Of a stretch of 31,887 nt of DNA, positions 1 to 31,623 are shown in pieces. The notes under the pieces are model-generated. The model was not told where the DNA came from and did no database searches. It saw only the letters and a program-made list of their open reading frames with translations. The translations under genes were made by a program, and so were the position numbers. The stretch's first letter is position 1, and each line of letters starts with the position of its first letter. This DNA comes from a virus: the IMG/VR virus record IMGVR_UViG_3300021956_000052, positions 1 to 31,887 of that record; one strand, written 5' to 3'.

Positions 1-146
1 CTGCATACACTCAGCTGTTCATTCTGTGCATGACCACAAGGGATGTTTTACTATTACGTTTAATCAAAAACCAACGCAACCAATGATGGATTGTGCTACA
101 TGGGCTTATTCAGAAGTAGGGGAAGTTGAAGACATACATTTTCAAT
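1..146. repeat. Terminal overlap repeat, left copy (circular contig join)
   Basis: Bases 1-126 are identical to 31742-31867. The next 20 bases match with four mismatches (at 127, 133, 134 and 136). Because one open reading frame crosses the join and continues in frame to a stop at 188-190, this is best read as the overlap of a circular or circularly permuted genome, not as two separate genes. The mismatches change the local peptide only from Glu-Asp-Ile-His to Glu-Glu-Leu-His, which looks like real strain variation under selection and not sequencing noise. A true direct terminal repeat is possible but would normally be identical. Confidence 0.9.
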
Positions 147-190
147 ACATTGAAACCGTCATAAACATAGTCAAGGTTGAGATCGAATAA
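1..190 (+). CDS. C-terminal part of a ~103-aa hypothetical protein split by the contig ends
   Basis: This is the end of the gene that starts at 31620. Reading codons from base 2 gives an open frame to TAA at 188-190, and the same frame joins the 31620 start across the repeat. I do not recognise the family. The segment is rich in His and Cys, then turns into an alternating hydrophobic/charged tail (ETVINIVKVEIE) that looks like a beta strand pair. Its stop overlaps the next start as TAATG, so it is translationally coupled to the HTH-Tad2-like gene at 190. It sits between the DUF3310 gene and the Tad2-like array, a typical place for small phage accessory genes. Function unknown. Confidence 0.75.
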   Translation, partial: CIHSAVHSVHDHKGCFTITFNQKPTQPMMDCATWAYSEVGEVEDIHFQYIETVINIVKVEIE

Positions 191-600
191 TGGCACGACC
201 TAGATGCAGTATCGTTGAGGGACGCAGAAGACGTGATGCCATGCTTCAGCGATACGACGAACTGGTAGCCGAAGGGATGCGATGTAAAGATGCATCACGT
301 ACCCTCGGTGTTATGCATACAACTATATGCAAGTGGAAGCGGGAACAACTGCTCCAAGAACGAATCGAGATGCAGGCAGAAGTACAAACAATGGCTAACG
401 GATCATTTGCAGTAGCACTTGAAAAGCTACGTGCTGGCTACATGGTACGCAGGCATGGTGCTTCTTGGTTTCTACAGATTGCAGACAACAAGATATGCCT
501 TTACCTACTTGATGGCGCTGGGAATCGTAGATACAGCCGGGTTGCATCTTTTGGATCTGCTGATGTCCTAGCCATGGACTGGGAAGTGTTTGCCGGATGA
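190..600 (+). CDS. HTH domain fused to a Tad2-like (DUF2829) domain
   Basis: 136 aa. Residues ~10-60 contain a homeodomain-like helix-turn-helix (RYDELVAEGMRCKDASRTLG, then TTICKWKRE), the kind seen in terminase small subunits and transposase N-termini, followed by a charged helix. Residues ~72-133 match the DUF2829 pattern: F-x-x-A-x-x-x-L-x-x-G, then V-R-R, a Trp soon after, and a D-V-L-A-x-DWEV ending. DUF2829 is the family of Tad2, a sponge for Thoeris signalling nucleotides. The start overlaps the previous stop (TAATG) and the stop overlaps the next ATG. An internal Met at residue 68 could yield the second domain alone, but no clear ribosome site precedes it. The fusion is inferred from motifs only. 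Alternatively the N-terminus could be a diverged TerS-like remnant. Confidence 0.7.
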   Translation: MARPRCSIVEGRRRRDAMLQRYDELVAEGMRCKDASRTLGVMHTTICKWKREQLLQERIEMQAEVQTMANGSFAVALEKLRAGYMVRRHGASWFLQIADNKICLYLLDGAGNRRYSRVASFGSADVLAMDWEVFAG

Positions 601-803
601 GATTCGAGCAAGCGTATAGATGGCTAAGGCGTGGTAAGTGTATACGCCGAACTGGCTGGGCTTCCTGTTGCCATATAGAGCACTCACAAGGCGAGCAGGT
701 AAGACACTACAACGGCAGACGATGGCAAGGGTATACCCTTCTGATGCGTGATCTATTCGACGACGAAGGACAACCAAGGGACGATTGGGAGGTAATGAGA
801 TGA
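597..803 (+). CDS. Tad2-like (DUF2829) small protein, array member 2
   Basis: 68 aa. It opens with MRFEQAYRWLRRGKCIRRTGW, the characteristic DUF2829 start (short strand, helix, Gly, basic pair, Trp), and ends with RDLFDDEGQPRDDWEVMR, the usual DWEV terminus. The middle is short and rich in Tyr, Arg and His, which would line a ligand pocket in this fold. Start and stop both overlap neighbouring genes by 4 nt (ATGA), so expression is coupled to the fusion gene upstream and to member 3 downstream. Known Tad2 proteins sequester glycocyclic ADP-ribose-type signals and some bind cyclic oligonucleotides. Whether this short copy binds any ligand is inference. Confidence 0.78.
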   Translation: MRFEQAYRWLRRGKCIRRTGWASCCHIEHSQGEQVRHYNGRRWQGYTLLMRDLFDDEGQPRDDWEVMR

Positions 804-1051
804 ACGGTTTTGATGCAATGGTAAAGATGTCGCAAGGACACAAGGTCAAGCGAAACGTTTGGTCAAACGAAGAATATGTTTACTTAGTAGGTCATCGTGT
901 ACACCTGTCACGAGCTCTTTGTTGGGTTTATTTCCATCAGTACAGACAACCAGGGCAGATGGTAGATGTCTTTCAAGATTTGCTGACACAGATGTTCTTC
1001 AACATGGATTGGATGGTTATTCCAACAGATGCAGCTACGGGAGATAAGTAA
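800..1051 (+). CDS. Tad2-like (DUF2829) small protein, array member 3
   Basis: 83 aa from ATG at 800, chosen because it overlaps the previous stop as ATGA; a TTG at 785 would add five residues with no benefit. It contains FDAMVKMSQGHKVKRNVW at the N-terminus (helix, Gly, Lys-rich turn, Trp) and DLLTQMFFNMDWMVI near the end, matching the DUF2829 frame with the closing DW pair. The central part is aromatic (CWVYFHQY). It is the most diverged of the early members, with Met and Phe replacing the usual acidic residues before DW. The last codons form GGGAGATAAGTAATG, which supplies the ribosome site for member 4. Confidence 0.68.
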   Translation: MNGFDAMVKMSQGHKVKRNVWSNEEYVYLVGHRVHLSRALCWVYFHQYRQPGQMVDVFQDLLTQMFFNMDWMVIPTDAATGDK

Positions 1052-1290
1052 TGAGATTCGGGGAAGTGATTCAAGCCTTGATGGCTGGTGGTGGGAACGC
1101 AGTATGGCGGGAAGACTGGGGAGGTAGCGTATTCCTGCGATACTCCGAACTGTGGAACGTATTCGAACTGCACGGACCGAAGGGACGGGTAACACAGCTG
1201 GAAGAGTTGAGCCTATCCCCTGGTGATTTGTTTGCTAACGACTGGGCACTGGTTGCCATTGATCCAAGAACCGGGGAGGTAGCAAAGTGA
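1051..1290 (+). CDS. Tad2-like (DUF2829) small protein, array member 4
   Basis: 79 aa. It begins MRFGEVIQALMAGGGNAVWR, almost the same opening as the minus-strand member at 24913-25131 (MRFGEVYVRLLEGMSIRR). It continues with EDWGGSVFLRYSE and closes with SPGDLFANDWALVAI, the DUF2829 hallmark of a D-L/I-x-x-x-DW ending, followed by a short tail. The start is in a TAATG overlap with a GGGAGATAAG ribosome site at 1039-1048. The stop overlaps the GTG start of member 5. This is the plus-strand copy most clearly assignable to the family. Ligand and target defence system are not determinable from sequence. Confidence 0.82.
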   Translation: MRFGEVIQALMAGGGNAVWREDWGGSVFLRYSELWNVFELHGPKGRVTQLEELSLSPGDLFANDWALVAIDPRTGEVAK

Positions 1291-1523
1291 CCGGTATAGA
1301 AGCATTGGTAATGAACAAAGCTGGATGGTCTATTTCCTGCAAAACATGGCAAACCAGAAAATGGGCTATTGATGAATCGGATAGTCCTGACGGTGGTGTA
1401 TTTTATTGGATTGAGGCTAACGGATCTTTGGTAAACAGTCCGTATCAAGGATGCACTGAATACGATGTTACTTGTCTTTTTCTAATGGACATTTTGGAAG
1501 GGGAATGGTTTTTAGTTCAATGA
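1287..1523 (+). CDS. Diverged Tad2-like (DUF2829) protein, array member 5
   Basis: 78 aa, GTG start in a GTGA overlap with member 4. The family pattern is weaker: GIEALVMNKAGWSISCKTWQ corresponds to the helix and first Trp, and DILEGEWFLVQ to the closing D-I-L-x-x-x-W, with Glu in place of the Asp of DW. An insertion (ESDSPDGGVFYWIEANGS) lies where the other copies have a short strand pair. Gene order and overlapping starts support common origin with the four copies before it. It could be an unrelated small protein with a chance resemblance. Confidence 0.6.
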   Translation: MTGIEALVMNKAGWSISCKTWQTRKWAIDESDSPDGGVFYWIEANGSLVNSPYQGCTEYDVTCLFLMDILEGEWFLVQ

Positions 1524-1726
1524 TAATCTTCACCCTCGGATTACTGCTGGGCGCTGGGTGCTTGGCTGTCTACAATGAGATGTACACAAGGTGGTTGTAC
1601 GCTGATGTCAAGAGACGAGCGAAACAGCAAGGCATCAGTGAGCGTCAAATGAAAGATGCCCTTGTATGGGCAACCAAAGAGGAAATCGAGGCTAACCTAA
1701 ATGCCAGACCCGCAACCAAACGGTAG
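1520..1726 (+). CDS. Small single-pass membrane protein
   Basis: 68 aa from ATG 1520, chosen because it overlaps the previous stop as ATGA. A longer frame from 1472 would lie wholly inside the upstream gene. Residues 1-19 are a hydrophobic segment (IIFTLGLLLGAGCLAVY) predicted as one transmembrane helix, followed by a basic, helical cytoplasmic tail (RWLYADVKRRAKQQ). No family is recognised. It overlaps the terminase small subunit start by 26 nt. Possible roles include membrane-associated superinfection exclusion or a lysis accessory function, but nothing in the sequence decides this. Confidence 0.65.
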   Translation: MIIFTLGLLLGAGCLAVYNEMYTRWLYADVKRRAKQQGISERQMKDALVWATKEEIEANLNARPATKR

Positions 1727-2075
1727 ACCAACAAAGTACACGCCAGCAACCGTGACTAAGATTACAGATGCTCTGCGAGGTGGTAACACCCGCAGGGCTT
1801 CTTGTGCTGCTGCTGGTATTTCACAAGATACATTCGCCAACTGGCTACGTGAGCATTCGGCTTTTTCGGATGCAGTAGAAAAAGCAGAGGGCGAAGCTGA
1901 ACTCCGCAACCTTGCAGTGATTCAAGATGCCACTAAAACGACATGGCAAGCTGCTGCATGGTGGCTTGAACGGAAGCACAAAGCCGAGTGGTCTAGCAGG
2001 GTAGAGCAGACCGGCGCAGACGGTAGCCCGGTCAAGGTAATCGTGGAGTACGCAGACAAGGCAACTGATGCCTGA
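1701..2075 (+). CDS. terS: Terminase small subunit
   Basis: 124 aa. The N-terminal part GRPTKYTPATVTKITDALRG then GNTRRASCAAAGISQDTFANW is the standard DNA-binding helix-turn-helix of phage terminase small subunits, with the opening GRPTKYTP seen in many of them. The rest is a helical oligomerisation region ending in a short beta tail. Small subunits recognise packaging sites and load the large subunit, encoded just downstream with a start at 2068 that overlaps this stop. The start overlaps the membrane protein gene. Length is normal for the family. Confidence 0.9.
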   Translation: MPDPQPNGRPTKYTPATVTKITDALRGGNTRRASCAAAGISQDTFANWLREHSAFSDAVEKAEGEAELRNLAVIQDATKTTWQAAAWWLERKHKAEWSSRVEQTGADGSPVKVIVEYADKATDA

Positions 2076-3249
2076 CATTCGATTGGTTCTCCCTCGACCA
2101 CATGAAGGACAAAAGGTAATACTGGCACAGGCAAGGCGATACAACGTCCTTGCCTGTGGCTGAGTAGGTAGACGCTTTGGTAAAACAACACTCGGCGGTA
2201 ATTTACTTTCCGCCCCTGTCCTAAAAGATGCGCTTCCCTGTGCGTGGTTTGCACCTACCTACCGATTGCTGGAGGAGGCGTACAACGATCATAAGAGGAT
2301 TTATTCCCCTGTTATCCGGCGAGCTGTGCAGACTCCTGCTCCACGCATTGAACTGATTACCGGGGCAGCGATTGATTACTGGACGCTTGACGACCCTAGC
2401 ACTGTTGCCCGTGGTCGTAAGTACAAGCGCGTCATCATCGATGAAGCCGCAATGGCACGGCATCTAGAGCAAGCCTGGACGGAGGCTATTCGACCAACGC
2501 TAACCGACTACAAGGGGGATGCGTTCTTCCTTAGCACTCCAAAGGGTAGTAACTATTTCAAGAGCCTACACGCCATGGCCGGTGTTGATGATGACTGGAT
2601 GGCATGGCAGATGCCTACAACGGCTAACCCGTGGATAGATCCTACCGAAGTAGACAAGGCTGGTGAGTCTCTGCCGAGCATAGCGTTTAGGCAGGAGTAC
2701 TTGGCAGAGTTCGTCGATGCAGCTGGAGCAAGAATCAAGCGTGAGTGGTTGCGGTACGGTGACTGCCCAGAAGGCTTGCCTACCTATATCGGTGTTGACC
2801 TTGCAATATCTACGAAGTCTGAAGCCGACTACACCGGGGTTGCTGTTGTATCCCGTGGTGAAGATGGCACGATATACGTTAGAGACATCAACCGTACCCG
2901 CGCTGACTTTGCATCCGTGCTACGCTTCATTGAGGCTATGGCTGAAAAGTGGAAGCCCACCATGATTGGCATCGAGCAGGTGCAGTATCAGGCGGCTGTT
3001 GTGCAGGAGCTTCTACGGCGTACCAAACTGCCTATCCGGGGCATTCGCCCAGACCGTGACAAGGTGACCCGCTTTGCGCCTCTGGAAGCCAGATACGAGC
3101 AAAGCCAAGTCATGCATTGCCAAGGGCTCCCGGCTTACTTTGAGGATGAGTTGTTATCCTTCCCCGTTGGTAGGCATGATGACGTGGTAGACGCTCTGGC
3201 TTATGCTTGGCAGGTGTGCGGAACTAAGCGTGGTTGGGGAGCCGTCTAA
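2068..3249 (+). CDS. terL: Terminase large subunit, with in-frame TGA at codon 32
   Basis: Packaging ATPase/nuclease. From ATG 2068 the frame reads LPRPHEGQKVILAQARRYN, a standard TerL N-terminus, then Ala-Cys-Gly, a TGA at 2161-2163, Val-Gly, and RRFGKTTLGG (Walker A). Downstream lie Walker B (VIIDEA, ~122-127), the coupling motif LSTPKGSNYF (~159-168), the RNase-H-like nuclease start GVDLAI, IEQVQYQ, and the metal-binding HDDVVDALAYAW near the end. The total, 393 codons, is normal. No ATG, GTG or TTG start lies between the TGA and TTG 2266, so an initiation after the TGA would lose Walker A. Removing nine bases restores the consensus ACGRRFGKTT exactly. Readthrough, ribosome hopping, a defective allele or a one-base error are all possible. 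Confidence 0.9.
2161..2163 (+). other. In-frame TGA within TerL between Gly-31 and the Walker A residues
   Basis: The codon run is GGC TGA GTA GGT AGA CGC. A glycine codon precedes the stop and a synonymous glycine codon follows six bases later, the arrangement required for peptidyl-tRNA hopping (take-off on GGC, landing on GGT). TGA serves as the normal stop for many other genes here, so general recoding of TGA is excluded. Confidence 0.85.
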
Positions 3250-3325: not shown

Positions 3326-4033
3326 ATGATTGTAAATATCAAAGATGACCCTACGGGTCGCGTTGTGGCTCCTATCAAGCCATCAGTAGAGCCGGAGACG
3401 TTCCAGACAGATCAGGACTTTCAGACATACCTGTCGGAGTTTGAGTCAGTCAAGACAGAATTGTTCAAGCACTACAGTGAGACCATAAAGGTTAAGAATA
3501 CATTTGCTGGCCATTCTCTATCATTAGAGGCACCGCATCCAATGCTTTTGACTGAAGGCGTACAGCTGCGATACAAGAAAAAAGGCACAATCATGGGATG
3601 TGTTGCATTTGAGCCAGAAGGGCTAGATGTAGCTGCATATGCGCTTACCGCATTCAGGATGGAAATGTTTGATCGACTGGCACGCTTGACGGAGATGCGT
3701 GTCAAGAAAAACCTTCAAAGCCTTGCCACACTCAAGCCACTTGGAAAAGCACTCACGATACCGGATGGTCAGAAACTATTTGATGAACTGAAAGACCTCG
3801 TGTTCAGCTGGTACTACAAGCGACCAAGGCAAATCACACCAGAAAATCAACACTTCAGCATTGAAACAAGATTCGAAGAAACTGGTGCGTTTGATGAGGA
3901 CGGAGATCCAGTGTCCATCATGATGGTTGACGTGAAATTTCATCACTGGACATTTTCAATAAAGCAGTTCGATTCAATCGGTCCAGTCGAATCAACCGAA
4001 AGAATCATTTACGCATGGGAAAGACAACTTTGA
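3326..4033 (+). CDS. Unknown protein in a moron-like transcription unit
   Basis: 235 aa, not recognised. The N-terminus is polar and probably flexible (IKPSVEPETFQTDQDFQTYL). The centre is mixed alpha/beta with a basic patch (RYKKKG, RVKKN), and the C-terminus has a strand-rich stretch (SIMMVDVKFHHWTFSIKQF). No signal peptide or membrane helix is seen. It lies between terL and the portal gene, two genes normally adjacent, has its own sigma-70 promoter (3269-3298) and a strong terminator (4069-4092), and its ribosome site is the GGGAGATA type used by early genes here. That layout is the definition of a moron, often a fitness, conversion or anti-defence gene. The function is not inferable from sequence. 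Confidence 0.85.
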   Translation: MIVNIKDDPTGRVVAPIKPSVEPETFQTDQDFQTYLSEFESVKTELFKHYSETIKVKNTFAGHSLSLEAPHPMLLTEGVQLRYKKKGTIMGCVAFEPEGLDVAAYALTAFRMEMFDRLARLTEMRVKKNLQSLATLKPLGKALTIPDGQKLFDELKDLVFSWYYKRPRQITPENQHFSIETRFEETGAFDEDGDPVSIMMVDVKFHHWTFSIKQFDSIGPVESTERIIYAWERQL

Positions 4034-24333: not shown

Positions 24334-24376
24334 TATCCGCACTAGGAATATACACCCAGTGCGGATAGTTTGTCAA
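24334..24376 (-). promoter_or_regulatory. Promoter with operator straddling the -10 box
   Basis: On the minus strand TTGACA (24376-24371), 18-bp spacer, TATATT (24352-24347). The inverted repeat TATCCGCACT/AGTGCGGATA (24334-24343 and 24358-24367) is centred at 24350.5, inside the -10. The early RNA can also form TGCGG...CCGCA just before the ribosome site. Confidence 0.78.
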
Positions 24377-24912
24377 ATAGTTTTTATGGTGACCGATTCG
24401 GATGCTGGTATTAGATCAAGCCCCGGTGCATTGTCAAGTGCATGGTCACTGAGTTTGCTAACCAGCACAGTGTGCTTTGTCTTGACTGCTTCCGGGTTAT
24501 GTTCCATCAGCCATGCCACGGTCTCTTCCTCGTCTACAACCTTGACACGCTCGGCTACAGTCCTGAAGGAAACAGAGCCAAATGGACAAGTCCAAGTCTT
24601 GACCTTCAAGGAGCCGTCGGCTTTGCGTGGTAACTGGCTCAGTGCGTAGTCGTGCAGCTTGTCGTTGTACTGACGCTCTAGCCATTCGAGCCGTGCCATG
24701 TGCTTGCCGATCAGTTTGATCATGTTGTTGGTGATTGCATCAAGTTTATCTTTCTCTGCTTGGATGCTCGCCTCAATATCCATACGCTTCCGCATGACCA
24801 GCAGGGCTAACTCTTCTGGTGATTCTTCACCTGTTATCCAGCCTGATGCTGGACCAGCATATTCGCCTGTCTCTTCATCAAACAACTCACCGTTGATTAC
24901 ATCAAATCCCAT
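24373..24912 (-). CDS. Gam/Gp157-like nuclease-inhibitor family protein
   Basis: 179 aa. A long helical region (ELALLVMRKRMDIEASIQAE, NNMIKLIGKHMARLEWLERQ) is followed by a beta core: KVKTWTCPFGSVSFRTVAER and VKVVDEEETVAWLMEHNPEA, ending in HTVLVSKL. This resembles Mu Gam/Gp157-type proteins, which bind DNA ends and block host exonucleases. It is encoded with an ERF annealing protein, the usual pairing in phage recombination operons. The start follows the stop of the Tad2-like gene directly. Motif-based assignment; confidence in the exact family is moderate. Confidence 0.72.
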   Translation of the reverse strand: MGFDVINGELFDEETGEYAGPASGWITGEESPEELALLVMRKRMDIEASIQAEKDKLDAITNNMIKLIGKHMARLEWLERQYNDKLHDYALSQLPRKADGSLKVKTWTCPFGSVSFRTVAERVKVVDEEETVAWLMEHNPEAVKTKHTVLVSKLSDHALDNAPGLDLIPASESVTIKTI

Positions 24913-25131
24913 TTACCTTATAACCTCCCAATCTTCCCTGAGTGCTTGGATGTCCTTGTTGTATAGATCCTCTACCGCTGGAGTCCAGCAGTGTCGGTTA
25001 CCGCTTGCACGATACATAACCAGGCATTTCTCCCCAATGTCTGAGAACCGGACATAAGTGCCCGGCTCCCATCCTTTGCGCCTAATGCTCATGCCTTCCA
25101 AGAGCCTGACGTATACTTCCCCAAACCTCAA
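24913..25131 (-). CDS. Tad2-like (DUF2829) protein, early-operon copy
   Basis: 72 aa from TTG at 25131, in a TTGA overlap with the ERF stop. It starts MRFGEVYVRLLEGMSIRRKG, then WEPGTYVRFSD, and ends EDLYNKDIQALREDWEVIR. This is the clearest DUF2829 protein in the window, with the complete F-G-E, G-x-x-x-R-R-x-GW and DWEV elements. It is most like array member 4 on the other side of the genome. Being in the early operon, it would be made first, in time to neutralise signalling immunity. Binding of a Thoeris or CBASS signal is inference from family. Confidence 0.88.
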   Translation of the reverse strand: MRFGEVYVRLLEGMSIRRKGWEPGTYVRFSDIGEKCLVMYRASGNRHCWTPAVEDLYNKDIQALREDWEVIR

Positions 25132-25607
25132 CGCTGTAAACCTCTGGGCTTGATCGGTTCACCTATCACGATGTTTCCGTGTGGTCCTCGTGGCAGAGTG
25201 TTTGTAGCTGCGTTGCCATCATCATCCTCATCAGCTGAGATAGCCAACAGGGACGATACCGAGTATCGCCTACCGTAGGTAAGCGCAGAACCGAAACCGT
25301 GAGCATCATGCTTTGTGATGGGCACTACAACGCTCTGTGCGACCCATTCACCGCTTGCATGGATAATGCGTGACTCAACCTCTATCGCTGTTACTTTGTC
25401 TTCTGTGACGCTTTGTGACGTGATTCCCTGACTGAGCATCAAACCATGCTTTGTAAGCACAGGTCGGATGGTATCAAGGATGCTGTCAAGTGTGACGTAC
25501 TTAGATCTAAAGGCTGGGTTGTTGCCTTCCTTTGCGATGCCTGACATCTCCCCTTGCGCTTTGATGAGCGCAGGGGCGATGCCCGTGATGCTTTCTGATG
25601 TCTTCAA
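25128..25607 (-). CDS. erf: ERF-family single-strand annealing protein
   Basis: 159 aa, TTG start in a TTGA overlap with the gene upstream and a GGGAGAAG ribosome site. ALIKAQGEMSGIAKEGNNP and FRSKYVTLDSILDTIRPVLT are the opening, and KHDAHGFGSALTYGRRYSVS then SADEDDDGN is the ERF signature. ERF proteins anneal complementary single strands for genome circularisation and recombination. It is shorter than P22 Erf, with only a brief tail after the core. Neighbouring genes supply a putative exonuclease inhibitor but no exonuclease is visible in this operon. Confidence 0.95.
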   Translation of the reverse strand: MKTSESITGIAPALIKAQGEMSGIAKEGNNPAFRSKYVTLDSILDTIRPVLTKHGLMLSQGITSQSVTEDKVTAIEVESRIIHASGEWVAQSVVVPITKHDAHGFGSALTYGRRYSVSSLLAISADEDDDGNAATNTLPRGPHGNIVIGEPIKPRGLQR

Positions 25608-26697: not shown

Positions 26698-27006
26698 ATG
26701 AGACGATGTAATGAATGCGCTCAAGGCGTAAACGATACCGATCAGGTTTGCACAGCTTGCCGTTTGGCTGAGTGGAAGGACCAGCAGGAGCAGGCAGAGG
26801 CAGAGCGCCAAAGACAATATGCGCTGGAAGCGAATCGAGCTGCATACCTTGCTAAGAAAAAGTATATGCGTGATGCTCTGAAGGCTGGAGCCATTACCGT
26901 GCTTTGCTTCCTTCTGTTCTTGGCTTTCGTGAGTGCAACTAACGAAGCCATGCAGTATGAGTGGGAGACCAAACCAGCGATGCTCAAAGCCAATGGAGTT
27001 AAGTGA
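26698..27006 (+). CDS. Zinc-ribbon membrane protein
   Basis: 102 aa with an AGGAGATAAG ribosome site. Four cysteines in two pairs (RRCNEC and VCTAC) form a likely zinc ribbon at ~4-21. Then comes a charged coiled coil (EQAEAERQRQYALEANRAAY) and one transmembrane helix (AITVLCFLLFLAFVSATNEA) near ~65-82, leaving a short outer or periplasmic tail. The family is not recognised. Its stop overlaps the GTG start of the sigma factor gene, so both are co-translated. It might tether or sequester the sigma factor, but that is speculation. Confidence 0.75.
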   Translation: MRRCNECAQGVNDTDQVCTACRLAEWKDQQEQAEAERQRQYALEANRAAYLAKKKYMRDALKAGAITVLCFLLFLAFVSATNEAMQYEWETKPAMLKANGVK

Positions 27007-27824
27007 CACCGAGTAGGACAACTATTAGACAGACGCTCCGGACCTTACAAAGGACACCGGAGCGTTTGCTGTCTCACGATGAGATGGTATTACTTCACTC
27101 TGGATGGAAGCACGGCATTATGCAGACAGAATGTCTTGATGCCTTGGTGCGTCATAACATGGGCTTTATCAGGGATGTTTGCAAGGTCATCAAGCATAAA
27201 GAACACTTTGTGGATGCCTGCCAGTACTGCGTCGAAGGCGTTATAAGAGCAATAGAAAAGTGGGAGCCTGAACGAGGGCTAAGGTTTAGTACTTATGCTC
27301 ACCCGTGGATCTACCAGAAGCTGAGACGCTACCAATCAAACTATTTGCGAACCATCCGTATAGCAGAACACGCAGTGGTCAAATGGCACAAGCTGCGCAG
27401 ATTCTATGTCCTACTAGAACTGGATCTAGGCAGACCACCTACAGACGCTGAACTGTCCGAACGCTCTGGCATGACCATAGAGACTATCGAGATGTGCAGG
27501 ACAGCTCACGGCTTGGAGCCTGTATCAATGCATCACGGTATCCAAGGGACTGACCTTGTGCTGTACGAGTCTGCCGTTTTCGGGACAACCCAGAGCGCAG
27601 AGGATGAGTACCTCGAAAGTGTGGAGGAAGGAAGCGCCATGGATCACCTTTCTCGGCTGGATGACGAGACTCGGCAAATGGTTGTGTTGCATCTTGGCTT
27701 AGATGGTCGTGTACCGCAGACAATCCACATGATAGCCAGCCGTTACCGTTTACCCGCTGTAATCGTCAAACAGAGGCTTGCAGAGGCAATCGCTGAGTTG
27801 AGGAAGAACCTTGAAACATCTTGA
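27003..27824 (+). CDS. Phage-encoded sigma-70 family factor
   Basis: 273 aa, GTG start in a GTGA overlap. Region 2 is clear: LVRHNMGFIRDVCKVI, QYCVEGVIRAIEKWEPERGL, RFSTYAHPWIYQKLRRYQ (~47-117). Region 3 follows (RPPTDAELSERSGMTIETIE, ~150-170), and region 4 at the C-terminus (DDETRQMVVLHLGLDGRVPQ, then IASRYRLPAVIVKQRLAEAI). All promoter-binding regions are present, so it should redirect host RNA polymerase. Three near-identical TGn-extended -10 elements (TGTGGGATACT) lie before late genes and are the candidate targets. Region 1.1 is absent, as in alternative sigmas. Made early, it could start late transcription. Confidence 0.92.
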   Translation: MTPSRTTIRQTLRTLQRTPERLLSHDEMVLLHSGWKHGIMQTECLDALVRHNMGFIRDVCKVIKHKEHFVDACQYCVEGVIRAIEKWEPERGLRFSTYAHPWIYQKLRRYQSNYLRTIRIAEHAVVKWHKLRRFYVLLELDLGRPPTDAELSERSGMTIETIEMCRTAHGLEPVSMHHGIQGTDLVLYESAVFGTTQSAEDEYLESVEEGSAMDHLSRLDDETRQMVVLHLGLDGRVPQTIHMIASRYRLPAVIVKQRLAEAIAELRKNLETS

Positions 27825-30910: not shown

Positions 30911-31396
30911 ATGGGATTTTTTGCACAGCACACGACCTTCAGTGAAGGAAGTGGCAAGAAGTACAGCACAGCTGAAGCAGGTATTTACGCTTGCGCTCTC
31001 GTTTATGTGGGAGCGGTACAGAGCAAAAGCTTTGATGATCCAAACGTGATGGAGCCTAATCTAAAGTGGGTATTTGAAACCACAGAAGTCGGCGATGATG
31101 ACGGGCAACCATTCCGGTTTATTCAATATACGAAAACCACGTATGGGAATGACAAAGCCAAACTGACAATCCTGCTTGATGGAATGGTTGGTCGTATGAC
31201 CATGGATGCTTATAGCAACCTTGATCTACCAGCACTCAAAGCAAAACCATGGCAAGTTGTTGTTGGCACTCGCCAGAAAATGAACGGCGAGCTTACTAAT
31301 GTAATCGAAACCGTGAAGCCTGTAAAGGTTGCAGCTACAAAGCTACTACGCAAGGCTGTACCTACCGCTGACATCACCGATCCATTCGAGGACTAA
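30911..31396 (+). CDS. Putative single-stranded DNA-binding protein
   Basis: 161 aa. Beta-rich core (AGIYACALVYVGAVQSKSFD, LKWVFETTEVG, PFRFIQYTKTTYG, WQVVVGTRQKMNGE) compatible with an OB fold, followed by an acidic tip (ADITDPFED) like the polymerase/partner-binding tail of SSB proteins (D-x-P-F). It is transcribed from a strong promoter just after the helicase and origin-like repeats. The family resemblance is by layout and tail, not by a strong signature, so this is a likely but unproven assignment. Confidence 0.68.
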   Translation: MGFFAQHTTFSEGSGKKYSTAEAGIYACALVYVGAVQSKSFDDPNVMEPNLKWVFETTEVGDDDGQPFRFIQYTKTTYGNDKAKLTILLDGMVGRMTMDAYSNLDLPALKAKPWQVVVGTRQKMNGELTNVIETVKPVKVAATKLLRKAVPTADITDPFED

Positions 31397-31623
31397 TGAG
31401 GAACCACTACACGGTCGGCACTCTGGATGCCTTGGCGGTAATCGAAGATTGGAACCTGGACTTTGTATCTGGCTCCATCCTCAAGTACCTACAGCGCCAA
31501 GAGCATAAAGGGCAACAAGAGCAGGACAGGCTAAAGGTACTCTGGTACGCAGCCTATCTGGTTACACGCTCTAGGGAGTATGCCGACCGTGTAGTAAACG
31601 ATGCCAAGGAGATAAGAGAATGA
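31396..31623 (+). CDS. DUF3310 small protein
   Basis: 75 aa. MRNHYTVGTLDALAVIEDWN, LDFVSGSILKYLQRQEHKG, then DRLKVLWYAAYL follow the DUF3310 pattern (HY.....D.I..W.LDF..G...KY..R...KG..L.DL.KA.WY), common in phage genomes and of unsettled function. Start overlaps the SSB-like stop and stop overlaps the next ATG (ATGA), so the operon continues across the contig join into the Tad2-like array. Confidence 0.88.
   Translation: MRNHYTVGTLDALAVIEDWNLDFVSGSILKYLQRQEHKGQQEQDRLKVLWYAAYLVTRSREYADRVVNDAKEIRE

Follow-up and report, generated by a model that had tools for sequence, protein, structure and literature searches.

A tandem array of small, divergent Tad2-like genes, seen upstream of the terminase genes in one viral record, is real and widely found among related phages. 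Tad2 (DUF2829) itself is a known family, while the scale of the array, the turnover of its members and the fusion of one of them to a helix-turn-helix (HTH) domain are new. Our preferred reading, with roughly even chances of being right, is that the stretch between the DUF3310 and terminase genes would be an exchangeable counter-defence cassette, whose minimal Tad2 proteins would each sequester a different immune nucleotide.

Gene organization of the array

The analysed window is an entire IMG/VR virus record of 31,887 bases. The gene CIHSAVHSVHDHKGCF... is encoded at both of its ends in two slightly different versions, hence the record closes on itself; it is probably a complete genome. Window positions 1-190 and the last 260 bases are consistent with a near-complete circular record, the break falling at a strain variant. 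The relevant genes are the following (window coordinates and strand).

26-190, plus strand: C-terminal portion of a small variable gene upstream of the array, with its start across the record ends (107 aa in the relative L060)
190-600, plus strand: gene 1, family T1, N-terminal HTH and C-terminal Tad2-like domain (Pfam, AF2 model, VIA-align)
597-803, plus strand: gene 2, family T2, short accessory Tad2-like protein found in 13 loci (PF11195, 20.4 bits; leave-family-out profile, 30.7 bits)
800-1051, plus strand: gene 3, family T19, Tad2-like, seen only in this phage (PF11195, 21.3 bits; leave-family-out profile, 26.4 bits)
1051-1290, plus strand: gene 4, family T0, Tad2-like, the near-constant last Tad2 gene (PF11195, 26.8 bits)
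1287-1523, plus strand: gene 5, family T20, probable divergent Tad2-like protein (shuffle test; relatives L086-L089)
1520-1726, plus strand: conserved 68-aa gene of no family at the end of the island, found in 51 loci
1701-2075, plus strand: terminase small subunit, TerS (Sf6-type), right border of the island (PF20901, 28.5 bits)
24373-24912, minus strand: Mu Gam-like protein, adjoining gene 6 on its downstream side (PF07352, 30.8 bits)
24913-25131, minus strand: gene 6, family T5, Tad2-like (PF11195, 35.9 bits)
25128-25607, minus strand: ERF single-strand annealing protein, adjoining gene 6 on its upstream side (PF04404, 88.6 bits)
31396-31623, plus strand: DUF3310 gene, which borders the island on the left across the record ends (PF11753, 37.5 bits; order in relatives)

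The five open frames of the array and the sixth one on the minus strand, as read in the earlier note, are present exactly at the positions listed, and genes 1-5 overlap successively by 4, 4, 1 and 4 bases. Elsewhere in the window, positions 27003-27824 contain a phage-encoded sigma-70 factor (Sigma70_r2 over the cut-off, r3 and r4 sub-threshold).

Membership in the Tad2-like family

All six genes had initially been assigned to the DUF2829/Tad2 family. The corresponding Pfam profile is PF11195 (DUF2829, now named 'Tad2-like'), with the cut-off of 25 bits, and it is passed by gene 6 (35.9 bits) and gene 4 (26.8 bits). Genes 3 and 2 and the C-terminus of gene 1 yield sub-threshold scores (21.3, 20.4 and 15.6 bits, respectively), and gene 5 gave no match in the PF11195/Pfam search.

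Leave-family-out profiles, trained only on other array families from the relatives, score genes 1, 2, 3, 4 and 6 at 30.6, 30.7, 26.4, 19.6 and 42.2 bits, respectively, each value being higher than those of all 2000 shuffles of the given gene, which rules out a chance match of short ORFs for these five genes. Moreover, when a profile built from all array members except genes 1 and 5 (A5) was compared with PDB, the top hits were all seven distinct Tad2/AcrIIA7 chains (E 3e-6 to 3e-4). Judged by these profiles, genes 1-4 and 6 are members of the Tad2-like superfamily; the assignment stands for them, including the sixth copy and, by its fold as well, gene 1 (see below), while for gene 5 it is probable only. 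For the array as a whole, it is very improbable that short phage ORFs resemble Tad2 just by chance or convergence: four of the six genes are under the Pfam cut-off and gene 5 is without fold support, but, apart from the shuffles and the PDB search, the gene 1 model reaches Z of about 10 with every Tad2, and the genes evolve under purifying selection.

The identity of the other window genes to gene 4 is about 18-27%, hence the array genes are not recent duplicates, as had been suggested from their divergence, and recent duplication is excluded as the origin of the array. In the motif frame described as common to the copies, the closing DW is EW in gene 5.

Gene 5 is the weakest member. Its leave-family-out score is 13.0 bits, the best of 2000 shuffles having 12.8 bits, and its model (pLDDT 74) aligns with Tad2s at Z of 3.0 or less. 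With more relatives added, one of 20,000 shuffles equals its score on the full profile, and on the profile of the MTGIEA-type members none of 20,000 shuffles scores as high. These shuffle tests point to gene 5 as a probable member of the Tad2-like family. Among other island proteins, the 86-aa cluster c13 (ITALQRIKEDPEYWIRPVSW...; L072, L053, L066, L018) has three members scoring on the Tad2-like profile approximately as gene 5 does, and is possibly a further divergent Tad2-like family.

The HTH-Tad2 fusion

Gene 1 had been counted among the small Tad2-like genes; it does contain a Tad2-like domain, but it is not a bare domain, the HTH fusion having been overlooked. The HTH occupies residues ~6-68 (window positions ~205-393), followed by the Tad2-like domain in residues 69-136 (~394-597). 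All 37 gene-1 relatives have a Tad2-like match, and 22 of the 37 have an HTH_23 match (Pfam, E<0.1). In the AF2 model, based on 37 sequences (pLDDT 83), the Tad2 domain is preceded by a helical N-terminal part. ModTad2 ranks first in the Foldseek search with this model (probability 1.00, E 5e-3), and in VIA-align residues 69-136 align with ten Tad2/AcrIIA7 entries at Z 9.3-10.7 (rmsd 1.7-1.9 A over 60-64 residues), the next unrelated row having Z 5.8, while residues 6-69 align with HTH regulators at Z 4-5. In predicted viral proteins, the best matches bearing a name were again Tad2-like, some of them only 72-81 aa long. Thus, the structure comparison with Tad2s proposed in the earlier note favours its assignment of gene 1, with the above Z-scores obtained for every solved Tad2/AcrIIA7; according to the model, the C-terminal domain adopts the Tad2 fold. 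The best-conserved residues of gene 1 form the DGAGNR loop and the F..AD..A.DW stretch, which lie where Tad2 has the beta3-beta4 loop and alpha3 lining its pocket.

The fusion protein is probably a DNA-binding regulator with a sensor domain of the Tad2 fold. In acr-aca operons and in HTH-containing anti-CRISPRs such as AcrIIA1, a DNA-binding protein is located beside, or fused to, exchangeable anti-defence proteins. The presence of an HTH in the cluster (HTH_23 in the majority of gene-1 relatives) makes the array similar to these systems, but here the HTH gene heads the cluster and has no promoter gap of its own. Indeed, gene 1 overlaps the preceding gene in most loci (gaps from -17 to -1), therefore it has no own promoter just upstream and is not a classical autoregulated first gene; our guess is that it regulates elsewhere or acts as a sensor. 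Fusions in two PHROG families (phrog_1048, phrog_872) were considered as candidates for the same fusion and rejected, since the N-terminus of the one long member read, judged by eye, does not resemble an HTH; this member thus appears to be a different fusion.

Variation of the island among related phages

A megablast search for cultured relatives with the first 12 kb gave no match. Gene 1 had no tblastn match in 50,697 phage records, and genes 4 and 6 had marginal hits only among cultured phages, so that close counterparts of these three genes in cultured phages were not found by these comparisons. A host search with the terminase profile over 84,980 species genomes yielded one distant hit only, in Lysinibacillus. 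Related viral stretches were collected by two scans, one with the terminase (274 stretches found, 80 kept, 93-98% protein identity) and one with the gene-1 family (142 found, 80 kept); gene 3 had no relative in viral_contigs.

Nearly all relatives have a common gene order upstream of TerS, that is, DUF3310, variable, T1, variable, T0, variable, the 68-aa gene, TerS and TerL. The number of Tad2-like genes per phage ranges from 1 to 7 (about 80 relatives), and 118 of the 167 genes in 41 intervals are Tad2-like. Among 33 complete intervals there are 27 different gene orders; still, the first Tad2-like gene is T1 in 30 of them, and the last one is T0 in 29. With the second scan included, 216 non-redundant domains form 27 families at 40% identity, with at most 7 genes per locus. 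One array (L136) contains a 182-aa Tad2-like gene (3408-3956), whose length is sufficient for a second domain.

Of the 89 junctions that lead into a Tad2-like gene (gene 1 excepted), 77 are four-base stop/start overlaps, predicting that the array genes are co-translated; such a uniform joint would allow for whole-gene exchange without breaking the coupling.

The accessory families between T1 and T0 appear and disappear among the relatives with no phylogenetic signal. T2, T3 and T4 show 8, 8 and 4 changes on the terminase tree vs shuffled means of 8.5, 7.5 and 4.8, these families having 5-9 carriers each and the tree possibly being blurred by terminase recombination, while ThyX and two gene-1 types, with 7 changes each vs about 13 in shuffled data, retain the signal. 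At the same time, every family checked evolves under purifying selection, the within-family dN/dS being 0.06 for gene 2, 0.10-0.15 for gene 1 domains, 0.16 for gene 4, 0.12 for gene 5 and 0.18 for gene 6 (0.05 for the terminase). Low dN/dS would be expected if the target is an unchanging small molecule rather than an evolving protein, and family turnover together with the within-family constraint would fit binders of fixed small molecules.

Several genes other than Tad2-like ones are found in the island or next to it. A ThyX gene (PF02511) is located inside it in 18 of 41 intervals (L012, L019, L023 and others), between the gene-1 and gene-4 types. Exchangeable ParB-DNA methylase and C5-methylase genes occur between the 68-aa gene and TerS (L044, L025 and others), and formyltransferase-like and acetyltransferase-like genes, identified by eye, lie just upstream of TerS (L044, L025, others).

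Unlike the exchangeable array genes, gene 6 has a fixed position, as all four relatives that hold this region have its orthologue between ERF and Gam. The earlier note's sixth copy is confirmed as a Tad2-like gene in both profile searches described above (35.9 and 42.2 bits).

This constancy bears on a possible role outside defence, in which the HTH-Tad2 protein, T0 and gene 6 would be phage regulators or assembly or recombination accessories, and the accessory copies would be paralogues, e.g. subunits of a hetero-oligomer, which the earlier note had also considered. Such a role is consistent with gene 1 and T0 at the two ends of most arrays, with gene 6 fixed between ERF and Gam, with the array adjoining the terminase genes, with the presence of ThyX in the same island, and with the four-base coupling, which suits fixed stoichiometry. 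However, the accessory families turn over without phylogenetic signal, 27 families exceed the need of a fixed machine, and the solved members of the fold that were found are all either immune-signal sponges or called anti-CRISPR, so we consider this role rather unlikely.

Binding pocket and possible ligands

Solved proteins of the Tad2 fold are signal sponges (review PMC12043709), with Tad2s sequestering gcADPR or His-ADPR (PMC12043709, PMC13299392, PDB entry titles). HgmTad2 binds cyclic dinucleotides too, via a long insertion between beta2 and beta5 (PMC12043709). The array proteins resemble SPO1 Tad2, ModTad2 and SptTad2 in the fold, helix 1 (F..AL..L..G), basic residues, a Trp, the beta sheet and the closing D.LA.DW, and in being small phage proteins. 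Still, the solved Tad2s are 87-104 aa long and usually single per genome, while the array domains are shorter, tandem, hypervariable and in one case fused to an HTH. In particular, ModTad2 as a query matched 410 places distributed over 400 phage records, and in a sample of 299 genomes from one bacterial phylum there were five genomes with a match, each with a single one; hence, at the sensitivity of these searches, it is uncommon elsewhere to find more than one copy.

The domain length to the closing Trp is 58-74 in nearly all families vs 78-97 in the three solved Tad2s compared, and only family T6 (81), absent from the window, reaches the solved-Tad2 length. Nearly all members are about 10-25 residues short, with the gap opening after beta1, within the gcADPR-contacting beta1-beta2 loop; the missing stretch probably also includes alpha2 of the dimer interface (the placement of alpha2 is deduced from PMC12043709). 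Due to this shortened loop, the proteins are assigned here to the Tad2-like superfamily and not to proven Tad2 sponges. A long insertion of the HgmTad2 type is found in none of the array members, all of which are below the HgmTad2 length. With this insertion absent and the beta1-beta2 region of the pocket shortened, the suggestion that some copies bind cyclic oligonucleotides of CBASS is unsupported.

AcrIIA7 and HgmTad2 belong to the same family as the array proteins. AcrIIA7 carries DUF2829, and 23 DUF2829 proteins around AcrIIA7 homologues were noted in 2019 (PMC6739104), so that copies lying next to each other are in themselves no novelty; the literature searched contained no paper describing Tad2-like genes in tandem. 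In sequence, HgmTad2 (8kbi) hardly differs from the solved 'AcrIIA7' (9kzr), which means that one protein carries both the anti-CRISPR and the sponge claims. This raises the possibility that the array consists of protein-binding inhibitors on the Tad2 scaffold, acting as claimed for AcrIIA7 vs Cas9, or against other defence proteins, and not of nucleotide sponges. The domain composition of AcrIIA7, its closeness to HgmTad2, the shortened pocket loops of the array proteins and the HTH genes accompanying some anti-CRISPRs all speak for such inhibitors. On the other hand, the ligands in complexes of solved members are nucleotides, and the low within-family dN/dS would be unlike typical protein-protein arms races. 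On balance, protein-binding inhibitors seem unlikely. The array proteins differ from AcrIIA7/HgmTad2 in lacking the long cyclic-dinucleotide insertion of HgmTad2, and they show no evidence of Cas9 targets.

Acb2, Acb4 and Tad1 presumably share with the array the strategy of sequestering immune nucleotides, though their folds are unrelated to that of Tad2 (PMC12043709, PMC11722364).

Proposed function

The 'sponge repertoire' suggested in the earlier note is a plausible function of the array and our best guess, although one that may equally turn out wrong. The carriers would be an uncultivated tailed-phage group, whose cassette codes for minimal proteins of the Tad2 superfamily, coupled in translation, and each of these would most likely bind and sequester a different host immune nucleotide signal. 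ADP-ribose-type signals are proposed first because the solved Tad2s bind gcADPR and His-ADPR. The core of the cassette would be the constant pair with the HTH-Tad2 protein, a probable DNA-binding regulator with a sensor domain of the Tad2 fold, at the head and the T0 type at the tail, and the families between them would be gained and lost as the hosts and their signals change; the separate, fixed gene 6 would be made together with the recombination genes. Phages that carry sponges are punished by Panoptes, a guard system (PMC12657218), and so there may also be a reason to lose such genes again. Ligand binding, the counter-defence role and regulation are all inferred here.

The exchange of DNA methyltransferases next door in the same region counts for the cassette. 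Near universality of gene 1 and T0 in the group, which fits housekeeping equally well, counts against it, as do the frequent presence of ThyX, a nucleotide-metabolism gene (18 of 41 intervals), the shortened pocket loops and the lack of gene 1's own promoter. A bolder version, in which the library of minimal Tad2 domains encoded by the phages is open-ended, every domain is tuned to an immune nucleotide of its own, and the leading HTH-Tad2 protein senses the host immune signal and switches the phage's own counter-defence genes, seems to us decidedly doubtful.

If the members bind nucleotides, a small signal-binding scaffold would be available from this one phage group in at least 27 natural families, giving a direct route to undiscovered bacterial immune signals, as each accessory family should pair with a host signal, and the HTH fusion would be a testable case of a virus reading a host alarm molecule.

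A stop codon in the terminase gene

The gene of the large terminase subunit (TerL, 2068-3249) has an in-frame TGA at positions 2161-2163, just before the P-loop (ACG*VGRRFGKTT), which is also present in many relatives. No start codon is found in frame between this TGA and the P-loop. An intron was rejected, as there is no Rfam match and no long insert at the P-loop. Programmed bypass, readthrough or a co-converted insertion may account for the TGA insert. The same 9-base insert, CTGAGTAGG, is found in 37 of the 81 relatives examined, and most others are cleanly without it; in one relative (L037) the insert has 11 bases, and readthrough would there lead to a frame shift. The 15 bases upstream of the insert are invariant in carriers and variable in non-carriers. 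On the terminase tree, the insert shows at least 19 changes vs the shuffled mean of 27.1, and hence it moves.
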